Under the pieces are notes generated by a model that was not told the origin of the DNA, did not search any database, and saw nothing but the letters and a program-made list of their open reading frames with translations. A stretch of 64,000 nucleotides of DNA from Saccoglossus kowalevskii (taxonomy: Eukaryota > Hemichordata > Enteropneusta > Harrimaniidae), in assembly GCF_000003605.2 (NCBI RefSeq), contig NW_003154741.1:71744-135743 (forward strand), in the 5' to 3' direction. Positions 1 through 63,727 of this stretch are shown here, piece after piece; positions within the stretch are counted from its first letter, which is position 1; the number at the start of each line of letters is the position of its first letter. A program made the translations under genes and the position numbers.

Positions 1-50
1 GTCACCCAACCCTGAAAACAAATTCTTAATACCACGCTGAAGCGTTTGGT

Positions 51-920
51 AAACAGATAGAAACCATCCAGTATATCTCTATTCAATAATGTTATTATGT
101 TTAATGTACCTGGCGTCTTATCTCACATCACTCTCATCAAATATTCTAGTGTATCTCTGTATATATAGCAATGCCAATGACGGCCAATATTAGCAAACTG
201 GTGTGCATTAGATGTGTCTACATAAATGTTCGTATCATTAATTGTACCGAAGCGAGTCAATAAATTATTAAATGCATCCTGGTAGTATTTTATTATACCG
301 TTTGGATGCAGATGGATATATGCATTTGATAAGCAGTCGGGATACAACACATAAACCATCACATCCATGTATTTACATCGACTATGACCATTATCTACTG
401 CTGTTTAGTCGTCTGTCAATTATATATATGCTGGATCAATTGAAATTCAAGACAATTGAAAAAATAAAACACCGGGAACTGATAGACAGTTTGTCAAAAG
501 GTTGAAAACCTCCATAGAATCAGCTAACTCGGCATTTTGGCAAGCTGTTGAAGGAGTTAGTGAAAACCTGACCTGCCCCTTGATTGGAATCTAATCATTA
601 GGACATAATTGTTTCTAATGCAACTAATATACAACGTAATCGTTGTTCTGATTGACCCTATAACGGCGTGTTAATTAATTTGCCATCACTAACACATTGG
701 AGCAATTCTATTGCCATCTCGTGCCATCGCGTTTTATTTGTTAATACATTTATCACTTAGTGATCTGTACATCTGAAAGCTGTGTTTGTAATGATTATGA
801 AATAGAAAGACAACACAGATATCCATGTACTAGTTTATTTCATATTTTGTTTTGTAAGTTTGCGTTAAACCATTTTGAAGGCATTCAAAGTGCCTTATAC
901 AATCAACTTTGTAGACATTC
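51..920 (+). repeat. Left copy of a diverged direct repeat flanking the gene
   Basis: Block 51 to about 650 aligns by eye to 61991 to about 62550. Examples are AAACAGATAGAAACCATCCA against AAACAGATAGAAACAATCCA, and the shared TTTGGATGCAGATGGATATA. A second block, 777-920, aligns to 63474-63620 (AGCTGTGTTTGTAATGATTA). Similarity is roughly 80% in the best stretches. No coding sense is apparent. The first 50 bases of the window also match 10021-10066, so the family is composite. Confidence 0.75.
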
Positions 921-1140
921 CAGCGTTTCGAACTTGGAGCTTGATTATTGGTCGAACACATTTACGTCAAAGAAATGCTTCGCCAAAAAAGGGTGTGATT
1001 AACAAAACTGTTTCACTGTGCACTGAGCTATGCGGGAGTAATCAATAGGTAAGATTACCGCGATATACAGACGCTTAAACAACTCACGTATTTAGAAGCC
1101 AATCAGGCAGAACAGATGTGATCGGCGACTAAACATGATC

Positions 1141-14246: not shown

Positions 14247-14995
14247 TAGCTGCAGAACAAACGTCTGTAACCGAATGTGGAACTCATAACACGTCCCTTT
14301 ATATTCTCTGTGATTGTCTGTCGTCACTCGGCGGTAGGTCAAAACAATCTTCTACAAATGTATTAGTCTTAATATAAATAAACACATTGGCGTGCAGCGT
14401 TAGGGACGTCTTCAATTGAATGTGGGTGTTGAACTTAATATAAATATATGTATACCACCGAATGTATGTCGAAAACATTGATAATGATAAGGTCCAATTT
14501 GCAAATGCAAATACATCGCATTGGTTATACCAACCCTCAATGTAAAAATCATCAATTTGTAATGCCAACACGAAACAGGGCTGCTATTGCATACATATTA
14601 GGTTAACGCTCATTACATTTATTCAAAATGTTCGACTGTCAAACATTCTTTATTCGAACTATTCCAACTTTTGAAATCCCCTTATTTGGGGCGTAATATA
14701 AGTCAGCAACGTTGAACAGTTTGTGCCAAGACAGTACATGTAACTTTGTGAATACCTAATCTTGTGATGTTCGTAATATAATCTTTGTTTCAATTGATCT
14801 GAAACAATCACTTGATCTTATATTAATACACAGAACACTGAGTGTGTGAGCAGCAGGATGGATACGCTCGAAGAGAGGTTCCGACTCTGTATAGGACAAC
14901 TTTCGAGATGTCTTCAGGATGAAACTGCGAAGATAATTGACCAAATACATGCTGGTACATGCAAGTGATAATAGCGTGCCGTCTTAATACTACTA

Positions 14996-15142
14996 TATAA
15001 TATGATGTTATTACGAGGATACCTGAAAGTATGCACGAAGACAGTATAGCGGAGTATATACAGTTGCGCAGCGGATGTCGATGCGACCGCATACTTTCTT
15101 AGAGTATACTTTGCAGTAACCTCGTAATAACCTCATATTATA
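14996..15142. mobile_element. Foldback / MITE-like element about 280 bp upstream of the first recognised exon
   Basis: Arms 14996-15022 and 15116-15142 are inverted repeats matching at 25 of 27 positions (TATAATATGAKGTTATTACG outer part). The 93 nt loop contains AAAGTATGCACGAAG and GCGCAGCGGATGTCGATGCG. A related copy of the left arm and centre is at about 63728-63830. Size, long terminal inverted repeats and AT-rich ends fit a small non-autonomous DNA transposon. No coding capacity; open frames across it are by chance. Confidence 0.7.
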
Positions 15143-15385
15143 ATATATGTAGATATGTTATGTAGGTGTCACAGCTGACTGACGACCATATGCTAAAATA
15201 GAATGAGAAAAAATTTGAATAAAATACAATGAAAACATACATCTAAATTACTTTATTGCATTTTAGTTCCAGACAATAACGATGATAAATGCACTCGCGA
15301 ATCATGGGAAATAACTAATTTACATTAGCTTCAGTTCGCTTCAAAAATAATATTTTTGTATATCTTCGCATATTCAGGTTTATAA

Positions 15386-18300
15386 ATGATAATGTTATGT
15401 GGGAGTTTATTTTGTCATCTAGATATTGGTATAAGTGGTCTTTTAAAATCACATGAGGGTATCACGTCGACTGACTTATTACACTTCCTGGACGAAAAAT
15501 GTCTGTTCCATCACGAGAATCTCCACCTCATGGACCATGTTTTAGAAAAACTAAACAAAGAAATAGCATTGGAAATATTGCACACGTTTAAGGAAAATCA
15601 GAGAAAGTGTTCCATCATTCAATATTGGTCTTATGAGACTTGTAAGTACACAGTATACTCTATGAATTGGGATTTTACAAAACCACACTGTATATGTGTT
15701 TTATCAATAGATTTACTCTTTCGTGTCTTTCCTTTAATATTAAATAGTGTTTTAATGCTGTTATTAACAGTATTATTAATTTTCTTTTCTTTTCACGTTT
15801 TCATAGGCTATGGATTATTGTATACTCAATATGTTGCTTATGCTTTCTCATGTCATTCATGATAATGTTGAATATATTATGTTTAATTTCATGTTATATA
15901 AATAAATATATATCCTTGCCAAAGTCCAAACGCTGGAAAATAATGATTTGTTTTAGTATCGCGTGTACTCGAAATATGACCTTACATGAATGTTTAACAT
16001 CAATTGAAATCCATTAATTGACTTTTATAGCAATATTGTGCGCCCAATTTGTTTTAGTGAAGGAATACGAATCATTCATGGTACATTTTCCAAATGGGAA
16101 TCTGGATCCACCAATGCGCGATACATTGGAGAAGCTTCGACGTTACGTTGGTGAGAAGACTTCCGCTCCTATAAGACATATATTAGTGACTGGGATTAAA
16201 ATAAACCAGGGACTAGTTGTGAAGTTGAATATACCTGCACGATTCTTAGATAAGGAAAATCTACCGTTTTCGGATCCCAATGAATACTACGAGAAATGGA
16301 AATTAGAATGTTTTTACTTTAACACCGGTAGGTAGTTTAATTAATGCATATCACATGTCTTTATAAATAACAAAGCAATAAACCCATATGTTTACTGCTA
16401 TGTATGTATATATCTTTGATAGACATTCAGACGAACATTCACAAGATTCTGTCTAGCTTCTATTCTATCAAGATTGGGATATTAGAAACCAAGATAGTAC
16501 TGAAAACAATTTTGTTATTGTGTTATTTAGGATTTTATATTATATTTTCTGTCTGGAAACAAACTCGTCAATCACAGTGAAACAGATTGTATGTACATAT
16601 TGTATGTACACCAACATATTGTATGTACACCAACATGGTGTAATATTTTCACAAGAAACAAACTAAACCTTTGACCCCCTCATCAATTGTCGAGTTTGAA
16701 TATCAGTGATTAAAATAATGTTTTAACCAGTCTACAGATAATATAATAAAGTAACCACAGTTTCCTTTGCAAAGGTTTATGTTGTATACCAAATCGGTAC
16801 TTTGAAATGAAATTAAACTTGATTTAGGTATAGATGAAAGTGAGCGCTCAGAGCTCCAAAATTATGTTTTCGCGATTTAAAATTGAGACAGTTTTGGCTC
16901 CGCACTGTTAGCTCTTCAACAGAACATAATGAAAAGCTATTTGCAATATCAAAACATTAAGGTATACATGATTGTTTTGTTTTAAAAAAGGCAAGATTTA
17001 GGTGTTGGGTTCTTTGGTGGGTGAGATAATTTCAAAATACTAATGTTTGTTGGATTTGAAATGATCACATTGTATAGGTGTGTTTCCCAGGAGAGTGGGT
17101 TTAGGCCATTTTATATATTTTCGAACAATGTTGACAGAAAAGTTAAATATTTCTCTTTCTTAAATCGCATTATATTTTATACATCAAATATGACATGACA
17201 TCCATGTTACTATTTACATCGCACTTCATGTCAGTTAACAAAACGTAAATGATGCCAGGTATCCTATCAAATAGAACTTTAATAAATTATTTGATCCTTC
17301 TGAGCCGTTCAAGCGAAAACCATCTATGTGCATTTTTTTGTTTGAATAACAAAATTTGCTCACATATTTCTGTTCGTTCTGCTGTGCATCAAAGATTAAT
17401 TGGTTGTTCGATTTAGACAAATATTTCTTTGAAATCAAGAACACAACTTCTAATGAATATGTTCAAATAATTATATACATACAATCAATAGATTGTTAGT
17501 GTCATCTATTCTGACATGGATAATGAGGTGACATTTAGAAAAGGACTCATAAACGGTCGGTAGTTTTATTTATAAGGCGTATAGCATAATGTGTGATGGT
17601 ATGGCAACAAAATGTATTATTTGCACTGTGACCTAAAACAAACTCCGGTAATTTCGGTATAAATAATACATTGATTTTATTTTTGGGAGTTGAAGAGAGA
17701 CAATTCATGAATGATATATCCCCATGTACCAAAAACATAGTAAATTTAGAGTTCACAACTATGAGTCTGTGGGTCATTATATCATTTCCGATTGGTAGTT
17801 TCGGCTAGAATTGCTGTTACAAAAGGCGAAATCTTGTATGCATACTATCCAAAAATAATAATTTAATATAAATACTCAATTGTTGAACAAATAAATCAGA
17901 TAGGAGTATCTGTTTTTCAGACGCAGAGAAAAAAGTGTCTACTGTGAATTTTAATGTTCTGATATTGAAGAGTAATTTTCAAGAGCCAATAAAAGCTCTG
18001 TTGTCACTGAAGTATGCTGGAATGGGAGACCAGGGAGGGACGCCATCCAAGACTTGTGACATGCAATTCGAAAGGTAAATGTCCCAGACAGTTGGAATCA
18101 CATACATTGCACCCACAATAAAATCGGTGTGCAAAAATTCGAGTGATAATTCTTAGTTGGATATGACAGCACGATATTGTCCGGCTGAATTATTTGTGTG
18201 ACAGGTTTGGAATAAACATTGTACACATTGATTGTTAATGAAAATAACAGTTGTTTTTTTATCATCTAATTATTTTAATAAAATAGAAGCAGAATTGATG

Positions 18301-21300
18301 GGTATTATAAGCTAAATGGTACGATGAAGATAGAACAGTGTTATCTTAAAAGAGGATGTCAGTATTACTATGTATTGAAAAATGATGAAACTAACGTTCG
18401 GGAATACATTCACACCACTACTTCTTATCATACAGTTGACAGGTCATTGAAATTCGAAGATCCTAGCGGTAACTTTCTATCAAGTTATTTTGTTTTGTTT
18501 TGTTTTGTTTTGGCCAAACAATTATCAGCGGAATTAGGAATTACACGAGGTTCAGAAAAGAACAATTTAGTATGTTGTGCTAATAACAAGTGACAATTCA
18601 ATCTTTTATTGACTATTATCATAACTTAATAATCTGTTCTGGCGGATACTTTACATAAATTTGCAATCTCATAAGGTATTTGATATAAATATTAACTTGG
18701 TACTCCTGTTTCTATGATATGGTAATAAATATTTGTATATATTATATCACTAACTATTTAGATGAAATATGGGTCTACAATGACGTAATTCACCCCGCTA
18801 CACCAGGACGGTCACGTCAAGATGAACGTAACAAACACACGGACACACGACGTGAGGACTGTGAGCGGGCCATGTTAGCTATGCTTCCAAACTGGTCTGG
18901 GTTTGTTTTGGCCGGAGAAGAATATTCGGTTGACGAGGCTTTACTAACTTTTAGAAGAGTAGTACAAGGAATTACCGAAACGAAATTGATAAAAAATGGC
19001 AAAATAAGCATCAAACCGGTTAAGGATATTCGTAAAGCAGCTGTAAGAATTCTAAATTAATTTTAATATTGCACCTATATAAAAATGTGTATATCGTCAC
19101 ATTGTCAATTATTTTTTAAGAACTAATATTATATTCGTTTTTCTGTAGAAAATAATACAATTCTTTGAAGATAAACTGAACCATTTTGATGAAAACAAAG
19201 AACTCACACACGCGAAGCATGATATCATTTCTTCGTTGGCTATTACTGTAATATGCAATGAATACAATATTTTCGATATCAAGAAGGGTTGGAGGCGTAC
19301 ATTAGCTCGGAAATTGTTTCACAGTTGTGAAATTCGTAATGATATTGACCAACATTTTGGCAGTAATAGGTAGGTTGTTTTTATTCTTGTCACCAGTCAC
19401 GTGTCGTTTTGATATTCCTGTTTTTGGATATTTTGCTCATGGATAATATATATATATATATATTAAACATCTTGAAACACAAATAATTGATGTCATATGT
19501 AATTAATGTTATACCTTGAATAACGCAGATGACATATGAAAGTATTAAAAGAGTATATGGTTTATTGACAGGGATTACGCCCAAGCAGCCATCATTAAAC
19601 TCTGTAATGATATGATAAAGGAAAAGGAAACAGAATGGGTGTTTTCATTGCCATTGCTGCACTGTGTAACATATAGTTCAAAGTCTACGTCTACTCTGCC
19701 AAGTATAAGTCAACTATCAGATCTACATTGGTGGGGATTATCTGGACTAGATGTTAAAATGTATATTGAGAAAAACTACAAGTATGTCACCACAATCGTT
19801 TTGTTAATACATCAAAATACAAATAACCATTATAGGTGATAAGCTGATAGGGCGATAGATGTTCAATGTATTTTATCAGTAATTATCAATTGCCAATTAC
19901 GATTCTTTTGAGTCGCTTTCGGCGTGATTTTATGTTAATCATGTGCCTGTAATTAGTATTAACTAGAAATTATCGAAAGCAATTGATCAACATAAGGGAT
20001 AACTCCCTTGTTCATATACCTAACTATATTGGCATACTGTTGTCACAAGACTGAAGTATATAATCACAGAGGTGATTGCTGTCCGAATTGTATTTATTCA
20101 GTTGCCGTGGGCGCTCTCCTTTTCGCATGATTACACAAGAGGGCGTAGTGATCTCAAGGTAACAAATACATCCCACAATGTAACTTTACGAGTTAGGACA
20201 GTTAGTTAAGTTAGGGAGAGTCGGAGTTAGCGTACGGGAGAGTACAGGGTAGAGAGTGCAGGGCAGCCGGTCAACGAGAGAGTTGGGTCGAAGACCGAGT
20301 GAACAACAGATCGATTCAGTACGGCGCTCTGCGTTGACGTCCAATTAGGCCTATTATGTATTTCGAACAAAATTTAATTTTTTTATTGTGTTATCATCTG
20401 AATGTTTACACTTGTCTTCTCTGATTTTTAATTGGTACGATGATATTTCTACTTTTTCAGTGATACTGTAATGACGCATTTTGATGAAATTGCACCAGCT
20501 TTTGCAATTGACGAGACTCTACCCAGAAGTATTGCTTATCTAGAGAATTTGCGTGGCACACACTTCTTCGAGCTTGTAAACGATGACAGATTTCCAGCAC
20601 ACCTTGTCTACGTGAAGATCTGTGATGACATCAAACAAGACATGCATAATAACCCTGAATTGACGTCTGTGTACAAGGTACATGCATATACTGTACTCAT
20701 TTGTATCATTAAATAGGTCATTTAGATTGCAATGAGTAATCAGTAAATTTTAACACTTTATTTGTTGTAGTTCGATGACCGAATTAAAAAAATCCTTGAG
20801 ATTTTGAAGCGCAGAAATATGGACCGTTTATTTAGCGCTAATCTAATGTAAGTTTACCCACTGTGAGTATAATTAAACTCAGTTGCAATGCAATTCAATA
20901 TGGAGTTTAATTAAATAAAAGTTCAATATCCTGTGACTTAACATGGAAATGTTTGTGGAGCAATGGTACAATTATATGAATATTATTTATATTAAAATAA
21001 ATAGTAATTATATTAATTTTAATTTAGATTGTACAATACCTTCCTACTTTTACTAAACCTGAGCTATACAAAATTGACTTAAATTCGATTAAATATTAAT
21101 ATACATTATGACAATGGTGAAAGTCGTCAGTTGGTAGGTATGTTGTCACTTGGTTGATTTAAAGTTAAATGAAAGTCCTTACAACGTCGATACTAGACAC
21201 GCGCATTCTCAAGCGTACTTGCACACACGGGCACACACACACGCTATTTACATTCACCATTTGTTGGGCTCTATTTCCCGATATTAACGGTGCAACAAAA

Positions 21301-23641
21301 ACTTGTCTTTGTATTTCTATGCTAGTGAACATAAGGATGATATACAAATGGCGCACAAAATGTCGATTCAACTGATAAATAATGTGGTTGATACAAGGTC
21401 ACTTTCAAAGACGGACATCCTCTCTCTCGTTGACGCGGCGTCGACTAATTTTGATTTGATTGTCTGCCTACGAAAGTATCAACATGAGTGTTTTCAACCA
21501 GAACTTGAAGATATTGGAAAATGTGTGGATATGATTGGAAATTATTTTAATTCTACTCAGTCTAAATCAACAACAAATACTTCAGCTCGATGGCAATCAG
21601 TGATAAATGTAAGTAGTGATGTGAATACATGATCTCATGTTCGCTGCGAGACTCGCGTATTGCATGAAAGGCATGAAAGACCGAACGTCTGCCGCAAAAT
21701 TTGTACGATTAGATTTTGAACTGAAGAGGTGGATCTTTCAAATGCGAATATTGCGTTTATTTGCTGTTACTTCATCAAAATTAACTATCATCAGAATTGT
21801 ATAGCAATATATTAAGCGTGGCAATACCCCCAAAATACTTTCGCTTTTGTTGAATCCCGCGATAAGCTATTTCACACATTGAACAAGGTCTATCATATTG
21901 AAAAGTAATAAACATGCAATAATGGTTTACTTATAACTGTACGTTTTAGAGGGAGTTATTTGTTAATCACAATGATGTGTGTCTCTGATGTCACATCGGA
22001 ATATTATATCGCTTTATTTTATTTATTCCGGATTGGTGATTAACTATATTTTAAACTATAATAGTTGGTTGCATTTCATATAAACTATTTTTGGATGTTC
22101 CGTGGTGTCAATATCGTGTTACTAACCCTCATACTCAATAACATTGCATCTACAGAAGTTGTGTTGGCCCTGTCACAGGCATCCTCGCGATTGTGTTGTG
22201 TTTGGGTAAAATATTTTCATATTAGTTTGAATGCATCTTCACATTAAATAATATAATTCGATTACAGGATTGGAATAGACTAGTCGAAATTAATTTTGAG
22301 GCGAAGGAGATACAAGATAGAGTAATAGAAGCTTTTGACAAAATGATACAAAATGTAAGTTGTAACACATGTGCATTATATGCGCATCTGTTTACAGTCA
22401 TAATATTTAAATTTGATGAACTAGATACATATGTTGGCAATAAATCCAAATTATAATTTCTCAACAGCTACCTGCGAGTGATATGTTCGATTTGTTCTTC
22501 TCTTGCGATCAACCTAAACGTGGACCACTGCAATCGAAAATAGCTTCCAGGGCAATAGAAATATATAACGATAATAAAGATGTACGTATTGTAATTTATT
22601 GTAGATTTTCTCCGTGCTAACTTGGCAGTTATTTGTGCGACGATGCATCTCTCAGAGATGCAAGTGCACATTGTGAAGCTAGGCGCCATCTAGTAATTGC
22701 GTAAATTTGTTCAACAATTACTGTTTTATTTTAATAACTATTGAGACATGTTATTCTTTCTTTAGATTGTTTTACAAAAGGTTCCATCACCAGAAAAATC
22801 GCCAATGACACATAGTCAGTTCTTCTCCTGTGCCCTCACTTTAGATGTACCAGTTGTTGGTAGCATTCCAGACAATAAATTAGTGGAACATCTTTTGACA
22901 AGTACAGTACTGTTGCATTACACACAGCATGGTGATGGTAAGCACATTATATATTTATATTCATATATTTGTGTCATACTGCCAATGAAGTGTAGCGCTA
23001 ACGCAGTTACTGATTTGTTCCTGACTATTCGGAATATTTTGATGAGCGGAACAAAATGATAGGATCACTAAACGGCGTTTCTTCAAAATTAAATAGCATT
23101 ACTATCTCATATTTGTGTTTGTCCGTTTGTTGTTGTAAAATTGAAATAATATTCTGTACGATTTCTCGTATTATATACAAATAAAATGTGTTACTATTTA
23201 TTTGTAACTGTGTCGCCATAAGTCATCATTTTGTATTTTTGAAGTTTGACATAAGGGTTCTCCATTTTACCATGTTCGGAATATCCCGTATTTCTAAGAT
23301 GGTGGTGGTATTAGAAAACAAAGGTCGTGGCGAGCAAATCCCAATGACTTTCATGTGTGAACTTTCTATATCAAGCATTCTGTTCGCAAAGATGTATAGC
23401 AATAAAGTTATTAAGAAAATGCTACAGAGTTTGCACTCAGACATTAGGCAGTCTTACTTTGCGTCGGGTGACACTGCTACTGTGATGTTGTCTGCGGTAT
23501 CCTTGTATAAATCTCATAATCATATACAGCGATGAACTATATTGTTTATTCGTTGCAGTTGCCGGAAATATATTGGAAGCTAGCTAATTTAACGTATCTT
23601 AACAGTTACACGACAACACGAGGATTTTTTAGACTACAATG

Positions 23642-23705
<64 letters not shown>

Positions 23706-26700
23706 CGTGAATTATAAGTAATCTTTTTTTTCAGAAATACACACATTATATGAGCGAACACAGAAGATATTGAACGATGTACAAACAGTAATCAAGAACC
23801 ATCATCAAGAATGCTTAGATGGTCAAATTAAAATACATATTCTCCGACCTATAACACAACACAAAAATGAGTGGTCCCAGTTAGCTTGTTGGAGTATGTC
23901 TGACGAGCAATTGCTGATTGACCCTGATTGCTATCTAAGCATTCGACAGCAAGAACTAAATGCAGTTGATAATTTTCGTAAAAGTCTTGATGTATTCGAC
24001 AAATTCACACGGCGTATAATCTTTACAGGTAATACAAATCTATAACTTCATACCAATAAAATTCTTCACCTGAACGATCTTTTGACAACGAAGCACATAA
24101 TTTATTTGTCAATTGATATGTCATTGTCATTTCTAATCATTTTGCAGGTAATACAAGTTGTCTAAGCAATATTCGAAATGCATTAGCCGGGGATTGTTTT
24201 GAGGATAGCAGTATTAAAGAAATAGTTGGTGTCCAGACAGTTATTGCCGACTCATCTGAACCAGCCGACCCACTTTTATCTTCAGTGTCTTCTCCATCGT
24301 TCAATCCAAGTCACATCTACGCCAATGATATCACTCCGCAAGTCGTAGAAATAGTTGAAACAACTGGAAGCACTGCAGGGTTCCCATATGTATTTAAAAG
24401 AATATGGGAGATAGTTAGCAATGATTATCCAAGCAATATTTTACTTGACGAATTTGCTGATCTATATTTAGGTGATATTAAAAATGCCCTCGAAAAGTTA
24501 AAAAATCAATTGAAGTCGAGTGAAATAGTGTTAGGTGATGTGTGGAACTACTTCCAAAATGACGAAAACGAAATCTTGATACAGTTGTCTGCACTGCTCG
24601 GAAATGAAGTATGTGACAGACAACTAAAAAGCATCCAAGACAAGATAATCTACTGTTTTAAGATCCCAAATATCAGAACTGCAGCGAAGGTGGTCAAGAG
24701 ATATCAACACGAGCTATCATTGAAAGGCGACTTCCATGGAGTAGAAGAATTATGTAGTGAGGTAAAGAAATTATATCTGCTTTCGCCTGAATAGATTCAA
24801 AATAACTTCCAATCATATTATACAAAACGCATGATAATTTGTTCAGTGAAGATAAATGCAGACATAGCGTGAATTAATCTAACAAATGTTGACAATGATA
24901 TACATAAATAAATAATTGACTGAAGTATGCGAAAATAAATTAATTGTACATCTACAACTTGCAGCCACATAAATCCTTATAATGCATTTTAACTATTTTA
25001 GACACAATATTTGGAACAAATAGAATTATCATTTCTAATTGGAGACGTTACTATATCTATCGACAAGCTTATGAACGTTAACATGGAGAACTGTGAGTGT
25101 CTGCAGGAATTGTTGTCAAATGGGGAAGTATTATATTGGTCTAAACGAGTTACGCAAGGTAAGTAATTGTGAAATAACTGTATTTCTGAAATACTATTTT
25201 GTGGAAATAGTGTATTTAAAGTGGCTGTCATTATAGTTGCATTTTGCTAGTTTTACATGCATTATTTTCTTCTTTTTTTATATTTAATCTATGATACCAG
25301 TCATAAAAATTTGTCTATCAAAAAACTCTGAATCACTTATTTTAATTCACCCTCAACATTACTGACACAATTTTACTACATTTTATTTGTTTCTAACAAT
25401 AGGATCAATCGCCCAAATTCGTCAATTTATCAACCTTATTTACCAGTGGGTTGATAAACACGATATTCCAAAAGTTATAACCTACCAATCTGCTGTAGAA
25501 GGATGTCAGCCGTTGATGAACATTCGAGCCGACGCTGGTATCAATCAATTGTTACAGTTATTTGAAGAATTATGCAAGTCTATGAAAGAAGACAATACTT
25601 TGTTGAAAAACCTGGTATGTTTTGAACATGTCATTTCAATTCGTGCCTAAACTGATGACGCATATTTACTATAATCTAGTGATCCCAAAAAAATTACAAT
25701 TACAACATTACAATAGACATTTATCATGTAGGACGTTTATTATGACATATATTAAATTTAAATAAGAATTCAAACAACAAATGGTTTATTCCACTGTATT
25801 TTATTATATTTGCAGAAAAACAGTAATGTAAATAGAAAATGGTTACAGGATCTTTGGGAAACACACGTCAAGCCAAGTGAGCAATGTAAACGTGTAATAA
25901 AGTCCGTCAATGAAAGAGGGGTGTACTACATTAAACAACTAGAAACACCCTCAAATCAAATATCTGATTATATTGAACTGAATATTCCAGATGACGTAGA
26001 TGAAACGAATGAATCTAAATCCAATACAAATATGAAATACCTTGCTGGCAAGGGAGTGCAGTTAACGTTGCGTGAGGTGATGGATTATCGAAATCGAGTA
26101 GCTCTTATGATGGTGGATCAAGACAATGACAACACAGAGTTTGAGCGGTTTATTCAAGTTAGTATTGAGCATATGTTCAGTTCAATTAAATTATATATTC
26201 AATTTACTAGTGATTTCTTAATATCCGGCTAATAATATTTCTATTGCACTGTATTAGGTACACTTATTATTTAGATGTAAGATCATCTTGTGTTTTTTAT
26301 GTTTAAATTGACATGTTGACCTGAACATTGATTTAAAAATGTTGTAACATTAATCTTGTCTCACGGCAGGTGCTTGATGAGTTGACAGCATTGGTTAGCA
26401 ACATTATCATTCTCCAAAATGATGGTAGTGACATGTTTCAAACATTCGAAGCCATGATAATGAATCAAAATGGTGTGAACAAGTTTGTCATAAAAATGGC
26501 TGACCAAGAATTCAGAGGTACTGGGCCGACAGATGCAGTATTGGCGGAGATGAACGAGTTCCTTAGATCCTGTATTAAAGAGTGGCAGATGAGATTAAAA
26601 TGCGCACGTGATTCGTTTTACAACTTAAACCACTTCACATCAAAGCAACTGTGTTTTCTCCGAAAAGAGTTGAACAACGCACTAGAGCCTAAAGTCACCG

Positions 26701-29700
26701 ATTTTAGATATGCTCCTTCGGAACACATCAACTCAGAAAATGTCACTGAAAGCAGAATTCCTCGAGAAAACTTTAACAAGTCAACAGATGCCCCTGCTCT
26801 GTTGAGCATGCTAACACATATCAATGACACATTAGACGATGAAATGCTATGGATAATCGTAAATGATTGTATGAATCTTGTAAAAAAGAGGCCAGAGTTG
26901 CTGAGCCAAGGTGGCATGTATCAAACGCAGGATGTCCGACAACTTACTATAGAAGAAGAAAAAGAACGACGCAAGTTTTTCCAATTTATTGAAACAATGA
27001 TGGAGTTGGACGAAGTGGATGAGCGAATTGCAAAAGCAGCATTCCAAGCGACCGGAGGCGACATAGAAAGTGGAGAACAATGGTGCCTGTCTGACGATAA
27101 AATACAGCTTCAGGAGATGTTCACCGAGTTTTGTAAATCCAAATTTGCTGATATTGACGATTTGAAGACAGGGTCACCTTTAGAGGATGCAACTAGTGAC
27201 ATATCAACAGAATCGGCAAATAAAAATAATTATATGAGGTGAATATTTTTCTCATATATCACTTGTTTGTAATGGCCTATTTCCTTCTTAAGTATCTAAT
27301 TTGTTATCATATATCATTGTAGTCTATTGGTGAAAAGTCTTTCAGCATTCTGGAATGAGAACATTAATACAGAACATGGAAAAGTTAGCCTTGAATTCCT
27401 AGGAATGGTATTAGCCGAATTAAGCTCTAATGGTAAGATGTCGTACTTGATATATCATTTACTGTTCATTTATTGTGATTATTGATCAACAAATCACCTT
27501 CTAGCACATTTTTCACTATTTTTGGAAGACTTTCAGAATTGATGTGTTAAATAAGAAATTATTATTCTGTATTATGTATTGTTGTTTTACATACAGAAAA
27601 CTATGTTTGAGCAACCTTCTCATATGTGATGTTTGAATAACTGGCTTTTACAGGTGTTTTTATGTTGTTCCCATTCACAGATGTCGCACTCAAGGGGTAT
27701 GAAATTTTCCAAAGCATTGTTCCTGGTATACCAAACTCGTGCACTGTCACTGAAGGTAAGTACTTTCTGTTTTACTACTTGGAGAAATATGGTAATTTAT
27801 GATTTTAGTTTTCCATCGGTGGTTTAATTATGTATCATATTTTATATTTTACGAATTTTTGTCTAACGTATTTATAATATTTGTTATTGAATGGTGATTG
27901 TGTCTTTGGTTTACTGTTATTTTAGGGGACGTGCTAAATACACTATTATCGTTATACACCACAAATGGAAAAGTATATTTCCCTAATCAAGACCAAGTCC
28001 TTTTATGTAGTGGGAAAACAACAAAAGAAGAGGTAGGATGAATTGATTATATGTACTTGTTTATTTATCATTTATGGAAAAATAGCATATTCACGTAGTC
28101 GTAATGTGTTTTTATATCTGGCAGTTTACACTTTTCTTAAGACGGTGTATCAGAAGTCAAGTAAAGAACAGACTGTATTCTCTTGTATTTGCCGACCGTC
28201 TACCATTCAATATTGCAGGTGACGCAATTAGTGAATTGCGTAGTCTCTGCACGGAATTCAAAGGTATTGTCACGTATGACTCGTTGAAAAGCAAGCTATT
28301 AATTCACTGCGTCTGGTTATATGTTATTATTCTTTGCAATAACCATAATTAATATTGTCTTTGGTAACACATTGTTTCAATATTGTATTTCATATCAGAT
28401 TACAAACTGGTTATAATATCAGCTGAAGAGTATGGATCAAGTGCTATGTCTATCGCATTTCATAAGTATCGCATCGAGCCTCCAACTATTGAATTGAATG
28501 TTCTCAGAGAAAACGTTAATGAATTCCTACACAGCATAGATTCAGAATCAGTCGGTCAGTTGATTAACCCTGACAGGTAATCATTTATTTGTTAACTCCT
28601 TCTTTAAATCGCGTACACGAGGTGTAACTGCAGGTGATAATGGATAATTATCTTGTCTTATTTCAGTCATTGTTTGCGCATTGTGACATCTTCTCGCCCA
28701 GGTCTTGGTAAAACACTTGCAATTCACCGACTTCTAGAGAACTACTGTTTGAAGAGAAACTATAAATCATCCGATGTATATTTGAAAATACCAATAAATA
28801 CAACATCCATTGATTTAAACAAAATTGCAAGTTCTTTGGTGGAACATGTTAAGCATCGCAGTTACCAGGCAACGTCTGTGATTTATCATTTTGACATTTC
28901 TGCAACTGTAAGTCTTCTATTTTTACTAGATAAATATTCCATTGTAATAATATATATGTAATTATATAAGACATACACTAAGACATATGAAAAAATAATT
29001 GTTGCTCACTGATCCACACAGGTTCGCGAGTTGCTGCGGCAATATTCCTCATCAGTTATGTTAATAACATGGATACATATTACATATTTAATAACGGCAG
29101 CAGAGAACAACGACTTTTTATATTAAGATGCCAACGACTGGTTCTTGTCAACAATTCATTTTGTACGTGCAAAACGTTAAAAAGTGTGGTCTTTACATTA
29201 TACTATGTGAATATGCCTTACTTAAGCTAACATTTTACAGGTGGAGACTGGCATTGAAGAATTTATTTTTATGATATCTATATTACGGGAGATACAATGT
29301 CAAAACGTACATGTATGGAGGCGCAGAGTGTCCGATCTGTGTTTGATAGAAATCACTCAAAGAAACATACAGGTAATGAACAAATAAATATATGAATGGC
29401 AGATGACGTACCAGAAAATAATTCTAAATTGTTAATGCAGTTGGCGTAAACACGTATTTACACAGTTGTCAATATTCGTTAATAGGACTCGACAGTACAG
29501 GTAAATTTGTTCAGCTCCATATTACCCAGAACATTTTGCATATCACCACAAGATAATGTTCACGGACGTGTAATAAAAGGTAAACAATAACTAATTATTA
29601 CCTCGCTTGTTACAAGTTAAGTAAAAACATATCATCTTGCAATGAAATAAAACTACGATTAAGACTATTTCCGACGTTGTAAACATGTTTTGTTGTTCTT

Positions 29701-35700: not shown

Positions 35701-38700
35701 TGTTGTCATGAGTCAAAACATATTTTACTGAGTAAAGTGAAAATCGCTTTTTATTTGCTAGGAACACGCTGTTTTTACTGCTGATTGTTGATTCCATCCA
35801 TTTAGTATTCCTTGGAGTTGCAAAATATTGAATTCCTATTAACAAATATGTCTATATTCATTCTAGTGCTCATCCATACATATATTTTAATCAGGACGGT
35901 GCTTCCATTACACTACATGGGATGGTTATCTATCTCGATGGTTATCTTCGAAACTCAACAGATAATAAACTCATACCTGGTTTACAGATGGACTTTTACT
36001 TACGTCATGGTCTTAAGCTTAATGGTGTTGATGTGTTGCTAGACTTTGACCGTCTTTCAAGGTATGAGTACATTTTCACCAGAATTATACTTCAGTCAAA
36101 CTTCTTTTACAACAAACGAAGAACAAATGGTCCTGTTTGAAATGCTACAATGTTCTGTTTGAAATACACATTATTTATAACGATAATATTGGGAATTAAA
36201 TCCAAGTTATCTTGACAAAATTTCCATCAAAACAAACTGGGTTGTGTATACATTTCGAACAGACACTTGGCAGATTTAGTAATGTGTAGCAATCATCTGG
36301 ATTTGAGCACGATAACAAAATTACACAGTCTGCTATCGGCCTGTCCAGTCAATTACCTTAAACAATGTCTGTATGACTAAAGCCCATTGCCAGTGAGCTA
36401 CATTTATGCACAGTATAGCCAGTGTGTCTAGGTGGTTCGATTAGAGTACTGTAAAACATGTCGTTTTCGCGAGCATGTCTTTATCGCGAAGTTAGCGAGA
36501 GAACTGATTCGTTAATTCAAGATGTCGCTAATGACTTTATTATCAATTCAAAATGGCCGCCAAACAAAGAAATCAACAATGACAAGAGAGATTCGCTAAA
36601 TCAACATTTCGCTATTACGTCATTTTATCACACTTCGCTAAAATTGTTGCCGCTTTTTCAACATGTTTTACAGTAATTTAAACTTGATTGTAGAGAAACA
36701 TTTACTTTTGGTTTTATCATCACTAAACCACATTCCTCATACATTTAATGATGTGCCGTAATACTAGACAGCAATTCAACGTTATTCACGCACCTGAGTT
36801 GAGTCATGGTGACCTGTGCCAAACGTGTCATGCCTAGCTATTACTATAACAATTGCAATGTAAAAATGTAAAATAAAGCAAGCCTGATCTAAGCTGTAAG
36901 CAATTCAGTTTTTTGCCTGTGGATTTATCAAAACGGGTACTTGAATCAAGCAATAGTTTTTGGAAATTGTTAATTGTTGCAATGTATCAGACTGAAGCAC
37001 GTATGTGGCGAGGCTACGCCCGTTAGTCAGTAATGCAGAAAAAACATGCAGATAATGCAGAAAAAATACATTGCTTTGCATATAATGAGTTTGTTTGTAG
37101 ATTAAAATGTAATATACCAACAGACGTAAGAAAATCGAACACATCCACACTGTGATGGGCATAAAGTTAAAGTCTGATCCTGATTCAACGTATGAACTAA
37201 CTGCTGACAATGTATCAAAACTGCTGGATATTTTCATGAATTTCAGGTAAACTTACAACAGAGTTTTGATAATTTGGTGACAAAATTTTAGTTGGCTTGA
37301 TTATATCGCTTTCGACGAGAGTAATAATTTTCAGATGATCAGAAGTGTATTTGATTCATATGTGTATTTATGCATGCATATCTATATACGTGTGTACCAC
37401 CAATATTCCAAAAAACATTCATTAGATTTTTTAATAATCTGTCAAATCTGTGCAAATTATTAATATGTACTAATGCTATATACTGCTATCTGACACACAA
37501 ACAATGAATGTATTTTTGAAATATAGAATTAACACTTTATTTTTCAGCTGCCAAATAAAATGTAATTTTTTGACAAAAACATTGGGAAAATTGGTTTGTG
37601 TTTACTATATATGTGTAAGAGCTACTCATGGATAGATGTTACTCTATAGGGAATGTCGATTTAGCCATGCACTTTCAAATGTCATGCATCTACAAATAAA
37701 ATTGTATAATATACAATCTACCAATTATCTATGTTTATTTTATCTGAACAGATGTGACATACCTGTAGTCATAATGGGAGACACTGGTACTGGGAAAACA
37801 AGAATGGTCAAATTCCTCTGTTATATGATGGCTGGAAGAAGTGATCAGTCAAACTTTCATATGGTGAAGGTACATAATAATAATAAAATTGCACACATAT
37901 CACATTTTGCCAATAATCATAACCACCACTGATTGGTACAGAAATTCAAGCATGACTGGTGAATGATTATTTAATTATATAATATCAATGTATAGGCGAA
38001 GAGTCATATTTGAAACACAGTATTGTAGATGTTTTTTTAGATCATTTGCTTCAGCAGAACGAATACGATCGATAACACTTCCTTTAATTCAACATACAAC
38101 TAAACCATATTAGCTATTAACATTATCATCGAAAATGAACTTGCCAGATTGAAACACTTGTTATATACACAATATAAATTAAATTTACGAATGGAAAGAT
38201 GAATGACTTTAAACAATATTTGCTATTTACCGCTCAATCAAATATGGCGACAAATGGGATGGTGATGTTCAACAAACATGTCAAGCAGTCTTAAACGTAT
38301 CATTATTAATGCTTTTATAGGGGTACTGACACCCTTCTGACAAAATCAATTATGTGTTTTAAAACAAAACCAAATAGCTGGTCATTGTTTAGGGAGGTAT
38401 TCAACATGACGGAAAAATGATGTAAACTATAAAAAAAAGTTTCGTGAAACCATTTTCAACAATTTGATAGATCTGATCAAATCCAACATCTTGAGGAATG
38501 TGTTCGCATGATTGTACATTTCTCGTCGTGTATTGACTCAGATATTCATGTTATGATAAATGCACGCAACTTGGGCGCTGTCATTGTGTCGTTTTACTTT
38601 TCCAACTCATACAATTAATGTCTGTCATCTGAAAAATTCAGCAAATTCTGCAAGCCATTGATCAACCACCAGCCGAACGGTTGATGCCTGCCTATCAAGC

Positions 38701-41700
38701 ATGTACATGTCCTATCAATATTTACAGGTTCATGGAGGCACAACAGCTGTTGACATTGAAGAACGAGTCTGGAAAGCTGCACAATCAGCAAAACACAATA
38801 AAAAGGAAATGAATGTATTATTTTTCGACGAAACAAATTCATGTGAAGCAGTTGGCTTGGTGGGAGAAATCTTATTAGACAGAACTGTGAGAGGAAAACC
38901 TATTGATACACCAAATTTGAAATTTGTTGCTGCATGTAATCCTTATAGAAAACATGGGGATGCTGCAATAAAACAATTAGAATCTGCAGGGTTGGGTTTC
39001 ACAGTAGACTCGGCCAATGTTCAAGAAAAGTTGGGTAAGTGACGAGATAAATCTATTCAATTTTATTTTGCATTAAGGTGCATATCTCAGAAGTGTGTAG
39101 CTAGTTTATCTGACCAGGACATGCAATTTAACTTTTAAAGTTTTTGTTCGCGTTAAGGTGACGTGCCACTTCGACATCTTGTATATCGTGTCCATCCATT
39201 GCCTGGAAGAATGATGCCATTTATCTGGGACTTTGGACAACTGAATCCAGAGACAGAAAAAAAGTACATTAGAAGCTTGGTTAATAATAATGTAAGTACA
39301 TTGGTATGGCAATAAAAATGTTTATAATTCCTGAAAAAAAATACAAATTAGGTCATTATATCTTTGTAACTGTTTCTTTTGATTTTGAAGGAATACATTC
39401 GACATTTGACTGAAGACACAAAGAAGTTGATTTCCGACGTTCTTGCAATGTCACAAGAGTACATGAAACAGCAAGAGGTATGTTATCATGTATGTGTATA
39501 TCGATTATTTTTTTGGTTGGAGTGGCATTATCTATGTATGAACATGAGCAATGAGTACATATATACACATCTATCGAGTGTGCACGATTACTACTTTCAG
39601 TTCTATATGTAGTTGCCCCATAAAGATGATGTTGAATGTATGAAGTGCAATGGTATCTTTGAATCTATTGTGATTGTAGTTTAGGTGTTTAACTTTCTGT
39701 GCTGTGTGCTGATACCATGCATTTTAAACTGACAATGACAAGAGATGATACCATTTTATTTGGTCACGTTCATTCGAATATCTTTACCAGGGTTGTGCAA
39801 ATATGTTTATATATCAATGTAATGTGATCTTTATAGGACGAATGTAAATTCGCAAGTTTACGAGACATTGGGCGAGTGGTAGAAGTGTTTATCTGGTTCC
39901 ACCGAAAGTATGTTCTTGTTAAAAACGAAATGGATATCAAAGAGGCACAGTATGTTCCAAAGCAATCAACGGAACCAGAATCTCGGGACCACGAGGATGT
40001 TGATCTCAAGTCCGACAATGGTAATTCACTCTACGCTAACTGTGGTTCCACAGATGAAAAAACAGCGATAAGTGAATATGTTAGGGAGACAGAGAGTACT
40101 GACGAAATCATGTCGACAGTAAGTCATTTTTCTTCATTAGCATATTCAGTAATATGTACAGTTCAATTTTACTTGCATATTTTCAAAAAAATAACAATTA
40201 TTATATATTCTGTGACTGGTTATGTGATGCATGCACCTTTAATATAATATTCTGATAATAGCTTACCATGCATGATGTTTATAAGGGGTATTTTTATTTG
40301 TTATAAGTTATTGCAACTAATAATATATTTAAAGTTGCAATAAACGACAATGGTATAAATTGTAAAACATTATTTTTGGGGGGTTACCCCAATTGGTAAT
40401 TCATAGAATAATTATTGGAGTAATTTACATGATTTGTTTGTCTTATATCATGCAGGAAGAAATCAAGCAAACACGCAGGTGTTTGATATTTGCCATAGGA
40501 GTGTGCTACCATGCATCCTTAAAAAACAGAAAAAGATACAGGAACTATATATCTCGGAGTTTTAAAGGACGATTCAAGCTTCCACATGGACCAGACAGTA
40601 TACATAACGACATAATGTGGTATGTTAGCGAATATATTGACATAAAATGTGGTGTGTGTAGAACAAATAGTTGCATTGATGAATGATATTTCTGCCTTGG
40701 ATGAGCATTCGATTACTGCCAAATTTTCGCCATAGCTGGCGCTCTGCACATCCTTTGGTGAGACACGGTAAGCTATGTACTACAGGTAAACATATGGGAA
40801 AGGACTAGATTAGCAGTCACCTGACGGCTGTTTTCCAATCCTATTCTCACTTATGTTCTTGCATTGTATTTAGGTTTTGATTCTATTGTATTATTGTATT
40901 GGTTATAATAAGGAGAATACACTTATGTATTATTATTATTATTATAAAGGTCATTTTGAGCTAACTTTGTTGAATCATATAGTAAGGTCAGTGGTTAATG
41001 CATATACCTGCAACTATTAAAATCAACTAATAATATAGTACAAGTTTCACATATGCACCAATTATAATATATTCTCTAATCAAATGAAGAATATTGAGTT
41101 TGTATTGTGTTTCGGTCAAGATTGCAGGCTGCGGGGTGTGAACTTCAAGGAATTACTGAAAATATAATTAAAAAAATTAATTGGGCTAATTGCCACCACG
41201 CTGAAAATGCTTACCGGTACAATGTGGAGTACATGAAGTGCGCCATCAACGTAAAGAATTTAACACTACATTTGCACACAGGACGTAACTACTACGCTGT
41301 TTATAGTTCTCTCAAAGAGGCTAAAAATATGTCTGAATTTATAACTTATAAACTACTAGAGGCTTATTTCTGAAGCCCGTAACCAGCAGCCTGAAGCCCG
41401 CAATTCGCACTTTGCAACCCGCAGCCCACAAACCGCATATTAATTATTTTGATCTATAATAAAAAAAATACAGATAAATATTTATGAAAAGAACATCTGT
41501 TCACAGGTGTCAACAATTGTTTATGGATGACGCGATGGTGACTGACCACATTGCAAAAAATAAAAACCTAACAGAGAACGTATTTATGATCGCAATATGC
41601 CTAGAACTAAGAATACCTTTATTCATCATTGGCAAACCTGGGAGTTCAAAATCATTAGCAAGAACTATTATTGACAATACGATGCAGTCTCCATCATCAG

Positions 41701-50700: not shown

Positions 50701-53700
50701 CAACTGTGATTGACAGTATTGACTTGCACAATTGTTTAAAATATGCCTTCTCAACATTTCTATAATTGGTGAGAATTGTGCTTAAATCTTACCCAACTAC
50801 CCATCGAAATTATGTTTTATCAATATTAATGATTGCACACAACAAGAAATGTAGTACTTGTTTTCAGATTAACAAAAAACGATTTCGTGGACAACTCCGA
50901 TCAGATATATTACGATGGAGTGCAATCTGCGTACTCAAATCAGATTGCCATTTTATTTTAATGTTATACACCAAAAGCCGCAGTTAAACTAAATTTGATT
51001 ACAGAGTTTTGATTTTTTCTCTGTAGATTGCCGATATTTTTGCATTTCAATATGCAGTAAATACTTTGAAACCAACTCCTATAAAGCAATTGAAGGAGGA
51101 CGCCAATTTAAGCAATTGGTTATGTACACTGGTACCTGAGGTTGCTAAGATCAATGACCAGTTACGTGTATTACAACATCTTTTTGGTACACAGAGTACG
51201 AGACTATATAACCAGTGCAGGTAATTTAAACTTGTATGTACTTGTATATTTTCGTTATATAATATACTCATATATTAAACTACCGTTTAATGCAGTCCTG
51301 GTAACCTGTGTTTGGTCCTACATGTTTATTTATCAGAATTTGCCATGAAACAATGTATCCAGTATTTATATTTATATTTATTGTTAACATTCAATTAAAA
51401 CTCAATCTAATACAGTTCTAAATTCTTACCAGACAAGCCTGGATAAACATTGTAATGGTTCGAATGTTTTTGGACAACATTTCGGAAGATCCCAACACTC
51501 TGGAAAAAAATATTGGGTTTGTTATGAAATACTACACTGTAAGTATTTGAATCAAATGTTACATCAAGAGATCGAAGCATTTATTTAAAATACGTGATAT
51601 GTCTACAAAACAAATGTGTCATCTGCATATATATGTGGTATTACCTATGCTACTCGTATATTTATTTTAATAATAATAATAGCATAAATGCTTTCCTTGT
51701 ATATTGTTGGGGAGAAGTCTCAAATGTGCACGGTAGTTTTTTTTAGAAAGCTGTTAAATGCATCCAATCTCGGGTCATTAAATTGCTTTGTCTTTTTTGT
51801 AATTTAACTCATTAGGCTATTGAGAAGGATAAAATTACAAAAAGGAACCATTTGAAAAAAGTTGAAGGACTACTTAACACATGCAACAAGAATGCAGTCA
51901 AGAAGATTCTTAGGTGAGATACAAAACTGCGGCAAATTCTTTCAGAACTACTCGTAATTTTCGTCTGGTTCTTTCAGAATCTTCAGAAATTTCCGGTGGT
52001 CAATTAACTCAATTGTCGGTAGTCTTCCAAATTAACTGGGCATTTAACAATGTGAATACATCAGTGTGGTTTGAGGGCCTTCGGAAACCGACGTGGCTAC
52101 TCGAATACAAGATGCCTGTGTATACACAGATACCAATGGCGTAGTTTGTTAACAATTACTGTCACGTGACAGTGATTGATAGGGGTTAATCACTGAAAGG
52201 AAACGTTTATTCTCTGCACTCAAATCTGACTACGTTTTCGAAATATTCTTGACACGTATGTATGTATGTAATCATTATAGCTTATATATACAATCAGTAT
52301 TATAATATTCTTAGTTAAAAATTGTAGAGAAAAGGTTGGGTGTTCAATCTCTTATCAGTGAAATGTGTAGGTTCCTTATATCATCAGAGGTGTTGAATAG
52401 ACGCTGATTAGAGACACTATGGTCGCTTTTTTCGGTCTATTATATAGTGGGAATAGGGGTTTAACAATTGCTGTATTCCACAGAGAAAAAGCATTACCTC
52501 ATTGTGCATGTGGACCCCATGATGTCAATGATGGAGTGCGTTTGAGGTGCGGACATGTATGCTGTAGCCGATGTTACGAAACAGACAAAGATACAAAGAG
52601 ATGTCCCGTTTCAACTTGCGAAGAAGTGTATAGCACTGGCCTTGAAAAGCAGACGATGCATGAACTCAGGTTTGAAGCTTTATTGTTTTGAATTTATTAC
52701 GATGAATATATCAGTGAGAGACAACTTTTATTAATTTTTATATGAAATGCATATCAATACATTTTAAGATTGTAATTCGTTATTAAAATCGAATACGTTC
52801 ATTTCAGTGATCGTCTAAAGACGTACAGATCCTACAGACGACGTCTCACTAACTTCTTTTTGGAGTTCTTGAACATGTTTTACCTTAATCCAGAATATCC
52901 ATGTAGTTCAGATAACGACGTTCGTAGCCATTTATTCAGTTACGTATCATTGAAAGAATCGAGTGGAACTAAGTCATTCACGCCGTTTGCTGTAGCAGAT
53001 ACAGACCCTTCCCCGGTGGTTAGGTCATATATACTACAATTGCTTTTGAGATACAGGTTAGCAATTTACTGTGCTATATCAAGTAATATCAGAAGAAATC
53101 CGATTTCTAAAGAATAACAGTTAAATAAAAACCAAAATTCAAGTTATTTTTTGAAATATAAATACCTTTTATTTAACCATTATGTTATGCATTATGTAAG
53201 CGTGGAACCATACACCTTTGTTCTAGATTGACAGATATAGAGGAGCAACTGCAACATTTTATAGAAAGTCACGTGGTTTTGGCACAAGAGTCATATGGGA
53301 CCAAGTCTATAATCGAAATATTGGTGATGTACATACAGTGCGTGCAGGTAAGAAAAGTCGTTTTTGAATACATTTAACAATTTATATGACGAATTGAAAC
53401 ATGAATATATCCATGGGCAACATAATCCACTTTATACAGACAGCAATTAATCGTTGCAATTGATTAATTAAATATATACATCTAATGATGAAATTTACTT
53501 TACAATTATTAAATAATGTATTTACTAACCTCTTATTGACTATTATTGTTGCAGAATTCTTATCAACGAGATATTGATTTCGAAATCAACTTGAACAATG
53601 TAAAATCCGACCTGGAAAAAGCTATGGTTTTACTCGACGAAGATGCCATCTCTGCAGAACAAAGACCATCAGTCAAATACCTAAACAACGTTGCTCTCAT

Positions 53701-56700
53701 TAGACATGCCATGGTATTTATATCTGAGGCGATTCATTCACAAATTAATACATTGAAATTACATAGTAGTTTATCGGAAGTTATTGCCATAGCTCAACAA
53801 TTGATAGAAAAGATGGATTCAATGGGCGCATCAGTGAGCAGTTCGTTTCTCCTGAAAAATATATGTCAGCGATACGGCATGTACTACAAAAACCGTATTC
53901 AGGTATCCGATCAGTTGAAAGGGATAATTCCACGACATCTTAGAACCACGAATGTGAGTATGTATTTTGGTGCATAATAATTAGTATGCATGTGCATATC
54001 GTGTGCTTAATTATAAAAGTAATATCACGTATAGTAATGATATTCAAAGACGTCTTCAAACAAATATCAACTGTAAAAATGAAACTTACTAGCAGTTTAA
54101 TATTTTGTTTCGGTCAGGTACAAAAAAGAAACTTGAATCCATTTGTGCTTGCTGGAAGAACTTACCAATACTTAACTGGGGTATTCACAATGTTCAACCA
54201 TGACGGTGATATATCCAAAGCATTTGAACATCTGCAGGTTAGTATATTATAACTTTAAGTATTATTTCACTAATTCCATGTTATTTATAATTTCTGCAAC
54301 GAAATAGAAATTCGTCATATTATTTATTTAATAAATTACAGGCACATGAGGCCAAAAGCAATATGGAATATAGTGTACTTCTTGCATTATTTTCTCAAGA
54401 AACCGGAAAAACAAAAAACTTTCAGGTATTGTGTTTATTAGTCGTGTATCAGGTTTTAATTGATATTAAACGTTCTTATATTTCTTGAATGATGTTCACA
54501 AGTTTTTAAATTGAGGATTCAACCTCTGTTGTGATTCCCTTATTATTAACCACTAACTATTTATATGTGTATTTTTGTTTATATTGCATAGTCTCTGGTA
54601 GATATGATTACCATTTCAACTGAGTTAAAGAAAGAGGTAATCTCCATATATGTTTACACTACATGATAAGTTGTAGAATTGGTATATACTAAATTACGTC
54701 AGTAGAGGGGATTGTATAATACATTATATCACGTATTAAATCAGAATTATTTTTACATTTTTATAGACAATAGAATTCTTCAAAAAAGTGAGCGACGCGC
54801 TTTTGGTTTCCAGCAAAGACTATTATGACCGTAAAGATCTACTGTATGCAGTGATTCATCTATTATCCATCCTGTGTGTTTCGAAAAATTCGGATGTTTT
54901 GAAAACTCTGTGGTTACTCATGAATTCCCCTAGCTGTATGCAGGTAAGTAAAATTTTCTAACAATATACGAGATTGTTTTGGGCAAAATGTTCAGAGAAA
55001 TGATATTGATACAAATTAGAAACTGTATAGCCACGAATTCGATATCTATTTTTCATTCTCCCAAAGCTAATAATAATAATTACTATACATCTATTGTGAA
55101 TTCCTTTTATTAGGAAAGTTTGCTGCCAACTATGCCAGATGATGACCTGTATGATGTTCAGCAAATTATGGGAGAATTACAATGGTATAGTAAGTATTGG
55201 AAATTTGAGGCTGAATTTTACTGAATTTATATTTACAGAGTAGCCGTTATGAACATTGAACATTGAACATGTGATCTAATAGGATTGAATATTCCCGCAG
55301 TACGTTTTATAATTATAGTATTTAATTTATATTTAGGTAATAGTGTGTGATAACACAGCGAGGTCAGTGTTGTGCGAAATGATTTCTTATTCAAGCGCAT
55401 AACCCTTTCTGTATCGTGTTGTAATTGGTATTGTAGGGTTCTACACAACTCTAATATACGTGCAGTAGTAGCCTGAAAACATTGACAATGTTGTTAACGT
55501 CCAGATAGAATCAAAACGTGGAGAAACATTGAAATTTGATGTCGATTAACCAAAGAGATTGCGGTGTTACAATAACAGGCAGCTCACGGTATTATAATGA
55601 TACACATCCCACATGAATTTGATATTCAAATCTACTGGCAAATTCAGTAAATTTTCTGAGAACAACATTAATTTACATTGGCAAATTCATGATAGGAAAT
55701 GGTATTGTACACCAATTGTCTTAAATGTGCCATCATACAAGCATATCTTATGTTCAAATACAGAGTGCCGCAATGGTCACCCGTATGCAATTGGAGAATG
55801 TGGAAAGCCATGGGACACGGGGGAGTGTAATATCTGTGGCGTTGTTATAGGAGGGCAGCAGCATGTGTTATTACCCGATAACACAAAGGCAAACGTGTAT
55901 GTTCGTTTTGAACGTTATTTCATGTCATTAACAGTATTTACATTTACATGTGCTGAATTAATGCCGATCAATGTAGCACAGCCTTCCAAATAGAAAACTA
56001 TATGATGAAGACAGCGCACATGGTATAGATGATATCAGTGTAAGCAATCTTTACTATTTTGTTGGCAACCAATCAAGTATTTGTGTTTTAATTGTGTTTT
56101 ATCAGTGCTAAAAGAAAACTCAATGGTCACATACTAGGAAATGCATCAGAAAGAAAAGAAGAACAGCCAGCACCTCTAAGAGATATGCTTTCTGTCTCCG
56201 TTGCGGTAATTCGTTTTTTAACGCATAGTGCCCTTTTAATTGGAAACAGTTGTAATCCCGAGGTTAGTACTGTCCATATATAAGTATTAACATGTGCAGT
56301 CATAAGCATATAGAAAGGTAAAAATATTAACTACTCTGTCATTGGAAATCCCTTATAAAAATATCGTTCTTAATTGCAGGATGTATCGAATCTGATACAC
56401 ACTGACAATCCGATTGTTGGATGCATGGACACCTTTCTTTGGGAGCACCTTGAAAAAGACATGGACCTCTTGGCAACATCTCTCGGAAGAAGTGTAGATG
56501 ATGCCATGCTTTTTGTGCATCTTGTTATCAAGTGTGCTCTCTTGAATTCTGTTGAAAAAAATGGTAACAATTCGGAACTGTGATCAGAATATGTCAGAAA
56601 TTCAAATAAATTGCATAATATTTATATATTTATTTTGCAATAATTAAAAGTCTAGGGTAGAAAGTGTGAGACTTTCACACGTTTTCTTGTGTTTCTGGAA

Positions 56701-63640: not shown

Positions 63641-63727
63641 CATCTCGGAAAATCGTCGCATAAAGATGGTGCAATTTAAAAAAGGATTATTGCGATGTGA
63701 TAAATATATCATAATTGCAGTGTGATA

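Follow-up and report, generated by a model that had tools for sequence, protein, structure and literature searches.

Gene structure and first exons

The DNA analyzed here, referred to as the window, is a stretch of 64,000 nucleotides from the hemichordate Saccoglossus kowalevskii that spans positions 71744 to 135743 of contig C4409 in the 572-Mb genome. Its forward strand carries a gene of RNF213 type, the principal features of which are collected in Table 1. By sequence comparison, the body that this gene encodes downstream of its first exons is an RNF213-type AAA/E3 ligase. The best matches of positions 55700 to 55945, in the RZ-type zinc finger exon, were also to RNF213 (E value of 3.8e-4), and this finger is the only one that we found on contig C4409. 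Other parts of the gene were less informative: none of the RING matches to the RING-like exon was to RNF213, an exon at 48456 to 48971 matched RNF213 at an E value of 0.47 only, and a search of the window gene, including exons 3 to 6, recovered no sequence match to CBM20. Elsewhere in the genome, two further RZ fingers lie on contig C343 (375181 to 375327 and 411399 to 411548) in open frames of 1,970 and 1,865 amino acids, which we take to be perhaps ZNFX1-type genes.

Table 1. Features of the RNF213-type gene, in positions of the window
Feature	Position	Strand	Remarks
Exon 1	14858..14954	+	Likely start codon, MDTLEERFRLCIGQLSRCLQDETAKIIDQIHA; counterpart of death effector domain (DED) helices 1 and 2; ends in phase 1 at donor GTACATG
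Exon 2	15423..15641	+	Remainder of the DED-like module plus tail
Exon 3	16058..16327	+	Next exon in phase; acceptor and donor conserved in the gene copy
Exons 4 to 25 (modeled)	17921..28930	+	Run as far as the exon with the first Walker A motif (SRPGLGKT); end position 28930 chosen arbitrarily
AAA-core exon, RNF213 type	38671..39039	+	All 9 listed matches are to RNF213, best E value 6.3e-21
RING-like exon	52401..52688	+	Weak RING matches, best E values 0.0061 and 0.014, below the cutoff
RZ-type zinc finger exon (E3 module)	55601..55990	+	PF20173, E value 1.3e-16, above the cutoff

We modeled a chain of 25 exons that starts at position 14858 and reaches the first Walker A exon. Built on anchors chosen from the comparison with a second copy of the gene, this chain encodes 1,957 amino acids without a stop codon; its exon borders at 17921, 18762 or 18807, 20664, 22226 or 22268, and 28322 are uncertain. 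Mapping of this chain onto the copy found the acceptor AG common to 23 of 24 exons and the donor GT common to 21 of 23, and the difference in exon length between the window and the copy was a multiple of three in 23 of the 24 mapped exons; this mapping used the exon forms starting at 18762 and 22268 and not those ranked highest by the splice scan, and it left exon 1 unmapped, though exon 1 is conserved in a separate direct comparison. The exon form beginning at 22226 breaks the reading frame in the copy, and the 22268 form was used. A preliminary description of this DNA had stated that the exon at 15423 to 15641 chains in phase to an RNF213 body. The stop-free chain, together with the AAA-core and RZ finger exons, bears this out: as far as exon chaining can tell, the module encoded by the first two exons is joined in phase to the RNF213-type body through conserved splice sites. 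Within an intron of the gene, three open frames on the reverse strand (31513 to 33466) look by eye like a reverse-transcriptase-type retroelement and had no Pfam match at an E value of 0.1.

At the start of the gene, exon 2 is bounded by an acceptor AG at 15421 to 15422 and a donor GTAAGT from 15642, both of which are conserved in the tandem copy. The exon was therefore correctly recognized in the preliminary description, and the three peptide segments quoted there are all encoded in it. It is preceded by exon 1, which carries the likely start codon and had been missed; in our exon model these are the second and first coding exons of the RNF213-type gene. The splice phase of exon 2 calls for a phase-1 exon ahead of it, and exon 1 was picked by eye with the DED layout in mind; in a simple splice scan, the junction of this exon ranked first. 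The ATG of exon 1 is likely the start codon, because the upstream spacing differs by 8 bases between the two copies, which is not a multiple of three (24 versus 16 bases, measured by eye, from the ATG back to a shared ACAG). Two acceptors had been proposed for the exon that follows exon 2. The one at 16058 joins it in phase 1, but we rejected the one at 16031, where the copy has no AG and carries an in-frame stop in the stretch that would be added.

Two minor features accompany these exons. Intron 1 contains a palindromic insert of about 150 bases (14996 to 15148), which has the look of a small mobile element with inverted repeats and is accompanied by related stretches at 63725 to 63828 of the window and at about 16082 to 16238 of contig C4409, in the tandem copy. 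Upstream of the gene, positions 12090 to 12140 encode 17 amino acids that weakly resemble part of exon 5 and may be the remnant of a partial duplication.

Conservation in a tandem gene copy

A tandem copy of the gene about 80 kb upstream retains exons 1 and 2 together with their phases and splice sites. A search of the genome with exon 3 recovered one other place (C4409:7440-7712, 80% identical in this search; the amino acid identity of exon 3 with the copy is 81%), and comparison of this copy locus with the window recovered exons 1, 2, and 3 in order and with equal phases. Exon 1 of the copy lies at C4409:6459-6555 and has an identical donor; it is 97 bases long in both genes and aligns ungapped, as does exon 2, which has 219 bases in both and 64% amino acid identity. 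When the joined 105 amino acids of the two exons were searched against the whole genome, four places were found, namely exons 1 and 2 of both copies. A profile of the exon 3 pair was also compared with collections of prokaryote and virus contigs, where it gave 452 and 107 pattern matches, respectively, none of which was confirmed; this has little bearing on the gene. The beginning of the window is similar to sequence beyond the 3' end of the RNF213-type gene (50 to 650 with 61990 to 62545, 74% over 615 columns; 769 to 903 with 63465 to 63613, 71%), which fits the upstream copy being a whole-gene tandem duplicate.

The conservation comparisons cover two copies at one locus in one genome, and within that scope the first two exons are better preserved than their surroundings, with 81% nucleotide identity versus 66 and 76% in the two flanking introns and with no gap events versus 5 and 12 in those introns. 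Intron 1 is 468 bases long in the window and 162 in the copy. The dN/dS ratio between the copies was 0.42 for exon 1, 0.60 for exon 2, and 0.38 for exon 3; it was 0.53 for exons 1 and 2 joined (one-sided Fisher P = 0.027) and 0.35 when pooled over 17 other exons of the gene. For exon 2 alone, purifying selection was not significant between the two copies (P = 0.13).

Comparison of the module with death effector domains

To place the module encoded by exons 1 and 2 among death-fold families, we used profiles from the same genome, in which at least 67 DED, at least 55 death-domain, and at least 13 CARD matches were found at an E value of 0.001. The DED profile and hidden Markov model (HMM) used 48 of the 67 places (8 loci from the first search and 40 fetched, with 19 unused; two of the 48, L004 and L041, contain a stop codon rendered as X), the death-domain profile 20 of 55, and the CARD profile 11 of 13. 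The pair of window and copy sequences matched the DED profile with a probability of 72% and a score of 27.9 over 81 columns, in an alignment that runs end to end, from residues 8 to 90 of the module and from positions 1 to 82 of the 83 in the profile. The same pair reached probabilities of only 0.34% against the CARD profile and 0.45% against the death-domain profile, with scores of approximately 11 to 12. None of 1,000 column shuffles attained the score of the pair (maximum, 24.3); the reversed pair scored 11.3, and the maximum among 61 tblastx segment pairs drawn from the two gene copies was 15.8, these being segments of at least 40 stop-free residues between window positions 16000 and 51000, some of them in noncoding frames. 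Exon 1 alone gave a DED probability of 5% and exon 2 alone 31%; the value for the two joined exceeds that of either exon, as expected of a domain split by an intron. Taken singly, the window sequence gave 77% and the copy 46%.

The strength of this match is below that of recognized family members. In leave-one-out comparisons all 48 DEDs scored between 47.5 and 94.0, a range outside of which the module falls, although these DEDs were chosen by Pfam, which raises the floor of their scores. Among single death-domain sequences compared with the DED profile, 1 of 20 reached 30.0 (86%), over 39 columns. The death-domain profile itself scored 27.9 against the DED profile (73.9%, 51 columns), so that the module scores at the level seen between death-fold sister families. 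The position of the intron relative to other DEDs was compared by eye and is not counted as evidence; many other DED matches in the genome start near profile positions 12 to 20, and the intron of the module falls near position 25.

On the basis of the profile-profile comparison, the module is probably a DED, and a DED-like ancestry is suggested; we describe it as divergent and DED-like and do not class it with the canonical DEDs.

Possible role and alternative readings

Human RNF213 coats bacteria and parasite vacuoles, and its RZ finger is needed for the coats on bacteria, according to the available text of PMC11549300. The reading that we favor, and regard as reasonably probable, is that the S. 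kowalevskii gene for an RNF213-type giant AAA/E3 ligase, present in two tandem copies, begins with a two-exon divergent DED-like module (residues 8 to 90) directly before the N-terminal arm and that this module acts in assembly or recruitment once a coat packs. Like human RNF213, the ligase would coat an intracellular target, and the packing of its molecules would bring the N-terminal modules together. The clustered modules could then offer a surface for oligomerization or recruitment, whose partner would be another such module or a different death-fold protein of the cell, and coating would in this way be coupled to downstream signaling. The most likely role that we infer for the module is accordingly a protein-protein assembly upon clustering of the ligase, through homotypic packing in the coat or through death-fold recruitment. 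Partners of the caspase-8/FADD type are one possibility for the module, and the potential partners are many, as they could include the DED, death-domain, and CARD proteins of the same genome. A more far-reaching mechanism, in which coat assembly of a pathogen-coating ligase directly nucleates a DED assembly and leads to caspase or inflammatory signaling in one step and without a separate adaptor, seems unlikely.

A module of DED-like descent might also lack partner binding and instead stabilize or pack the ligase, or block DED assemblies as a decoy, and it would then have no link to caspases. This alternative, which overlaps the reading that we favor, is a tenable one to which we give some weight. 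The charged RxDL motif is characteristic of DEDs, and at its position the window reads KEIA and the copy reads QKRA, such that the motif is absent in both, as would fit a loss of binding; its absence is not decisive, however, because just 22 of the 48 DEDs in our set carry RxDL in its strict form. Exon 2 likewise leans in this direction at its end: its final 27 codons (15560 to 15640, part of helices 5 and 6 plus the tail) have a dN between the copies of 0.26, versus 0.15 for the first 45 codons. Relaxed or diversifying evolution of these 27 codons is not significant, as the 14.5 nonsynonymous and 1.5 synonymous changes are too few to call. Against this alternative, exons 1 and 2 are still open and modestly constrained.

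In a rather doubtful alternative, the module has no ancestor among death folds; it would be a short bundle of helices at the N terminus of this RNF213 lineage, and its likeness to DEDs would reflect shared helix periodicity. Sequence searches give some support to such a bundle. A Pfam scan of the module returned no DED match up to an E value of 10 in either copy, and searches of PDB with the sequence and with the pair profile returned no DED. In comparison with the HMM of the 48 DEDs, the window module scored 11.1 bits, below 5 of 4,000 shuffles, and the copy fell below 8 of 4,000, which places the single-sequence scores within the top of the shuffles; the profile score that lies below those of all 48 true DEDs points the same way. 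A bundle of this kind does not readily account for a register kept end to end over 81 columns, for a score unreached by the column shuffles and by the segment pairs from the same genes, or for the low scores of the CARD and death-domain profiles. The resemblance to DED helices asserted in the preliminary description, which had also proposed a search against DED, CARD, and death-domain profiles, thus survives in a qualified form: profile-profile comparison places the module nearer to DEDs than to the other two families, but Pfam does not detect it, RxDL is missing, and its score lies well under those of recognized DEDs. Among the other matches, a designed pentatricopeptide protein in PDB (E value of 6.5e-5) was set aside because its score sums eight weak stretches, none of them significant alone; the pair profile gave one further match in PDB (E value of 0.28), and the copy alone matched a plant RST domain below the cutoff (E value of 0.004).

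That the two exons form a separate small gene or an alternative upstream transcript outside the RNF213-type protein is very improbable: the 1,081 residues modeled after the module had no match to solved RNF213 or other solved structures in sequence searches and the frame at 26337 to 27239 had no match to RNF213, as a separate gene would allow, but exon 2 has no stop and ends at a strong donor in phase with exon 3, this donor and the exon 3 acceptor are kept in both copies, and the 25-exon chain remains open to the Walker A exon.

The favored reading, in which a DED-like module heads the ligase, combines features known separately from other proteins. The window gene resembles vertebrate RNF213 (mysterin) in its AAA-core exon and RZ finger, which match RNF213 structures, and differs from it at the N terminus, where human RNF213 has CBM20 at residues 378 to 515 in a region described as fast evolving and under strong positive selection (PMC11549300, available text) and the window gene has the DED-like module at residues 8 to 90. 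In the available text of the mouse RNF213 structure paper, the word "death" occurs 0 times (PMC7311170). The module is like the death effector domain (PF01335) in aligning end to end with the DED profile of its own genome, and unlike it in lying below Pfam detection, in lacking RxDL, and in heading an AAA/E3 ligase.

N-terminal DEDs on innate immune sensors have precedents in invertebrates. As reported in the accessible portions of these sources, lophotrochozoan RLRs obtained an N-terminal DED through exon gain or exonization (PMC8998645), and amphioxus and sea urchin have DED-NACHT genes (PMC2575513); these are helicase or NACHT sensors, whereas the window gene encodes a ubiquitin ligase. Oyster IAPs similarly place an invertebrate death-fold domain beside a RING in one protein (PMC8917759, accessible portion), but they contain BIR, carry a death domain instead of a DED, and have no AAA core. 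The preliminary description had noted no earlier account of the present architecture, and in the open-licence literature that we searched we likewise met no RNF213-type ligase with a DED-like head and found no paper with "RNF213" together with "DED domain"; among 20 listed matches of 73, one paper, on GBP1, contains both "RNF213" and "death effector domain" (PMC12091997). Grafting of death folds onto invertebrate immune proteins is already known, and an RNF213-type ligase would be a further variant and not a new kind.

If the module is what we propose, a giant E3 ligase would join the RLR and NLR sensors as a recipient of DED grafting, and a germ-coating enzyme would have acquired a new wiring to other proteins. 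By its architecture, a ligase that in one lineage bears a death-fold-like module would hint at a downstream pathway between pathogen coating by RNF213 and a wider cellular response, and it would provide a natural construct for testing. The genome may hold another DED fusion as well: at one of the other DED loci (L033, positions 8 to 1363, reverse strand), an open frame of 451 amino acids has an N-terminal DED followed by what looks by eye like a P-loop, RNRGKSS.
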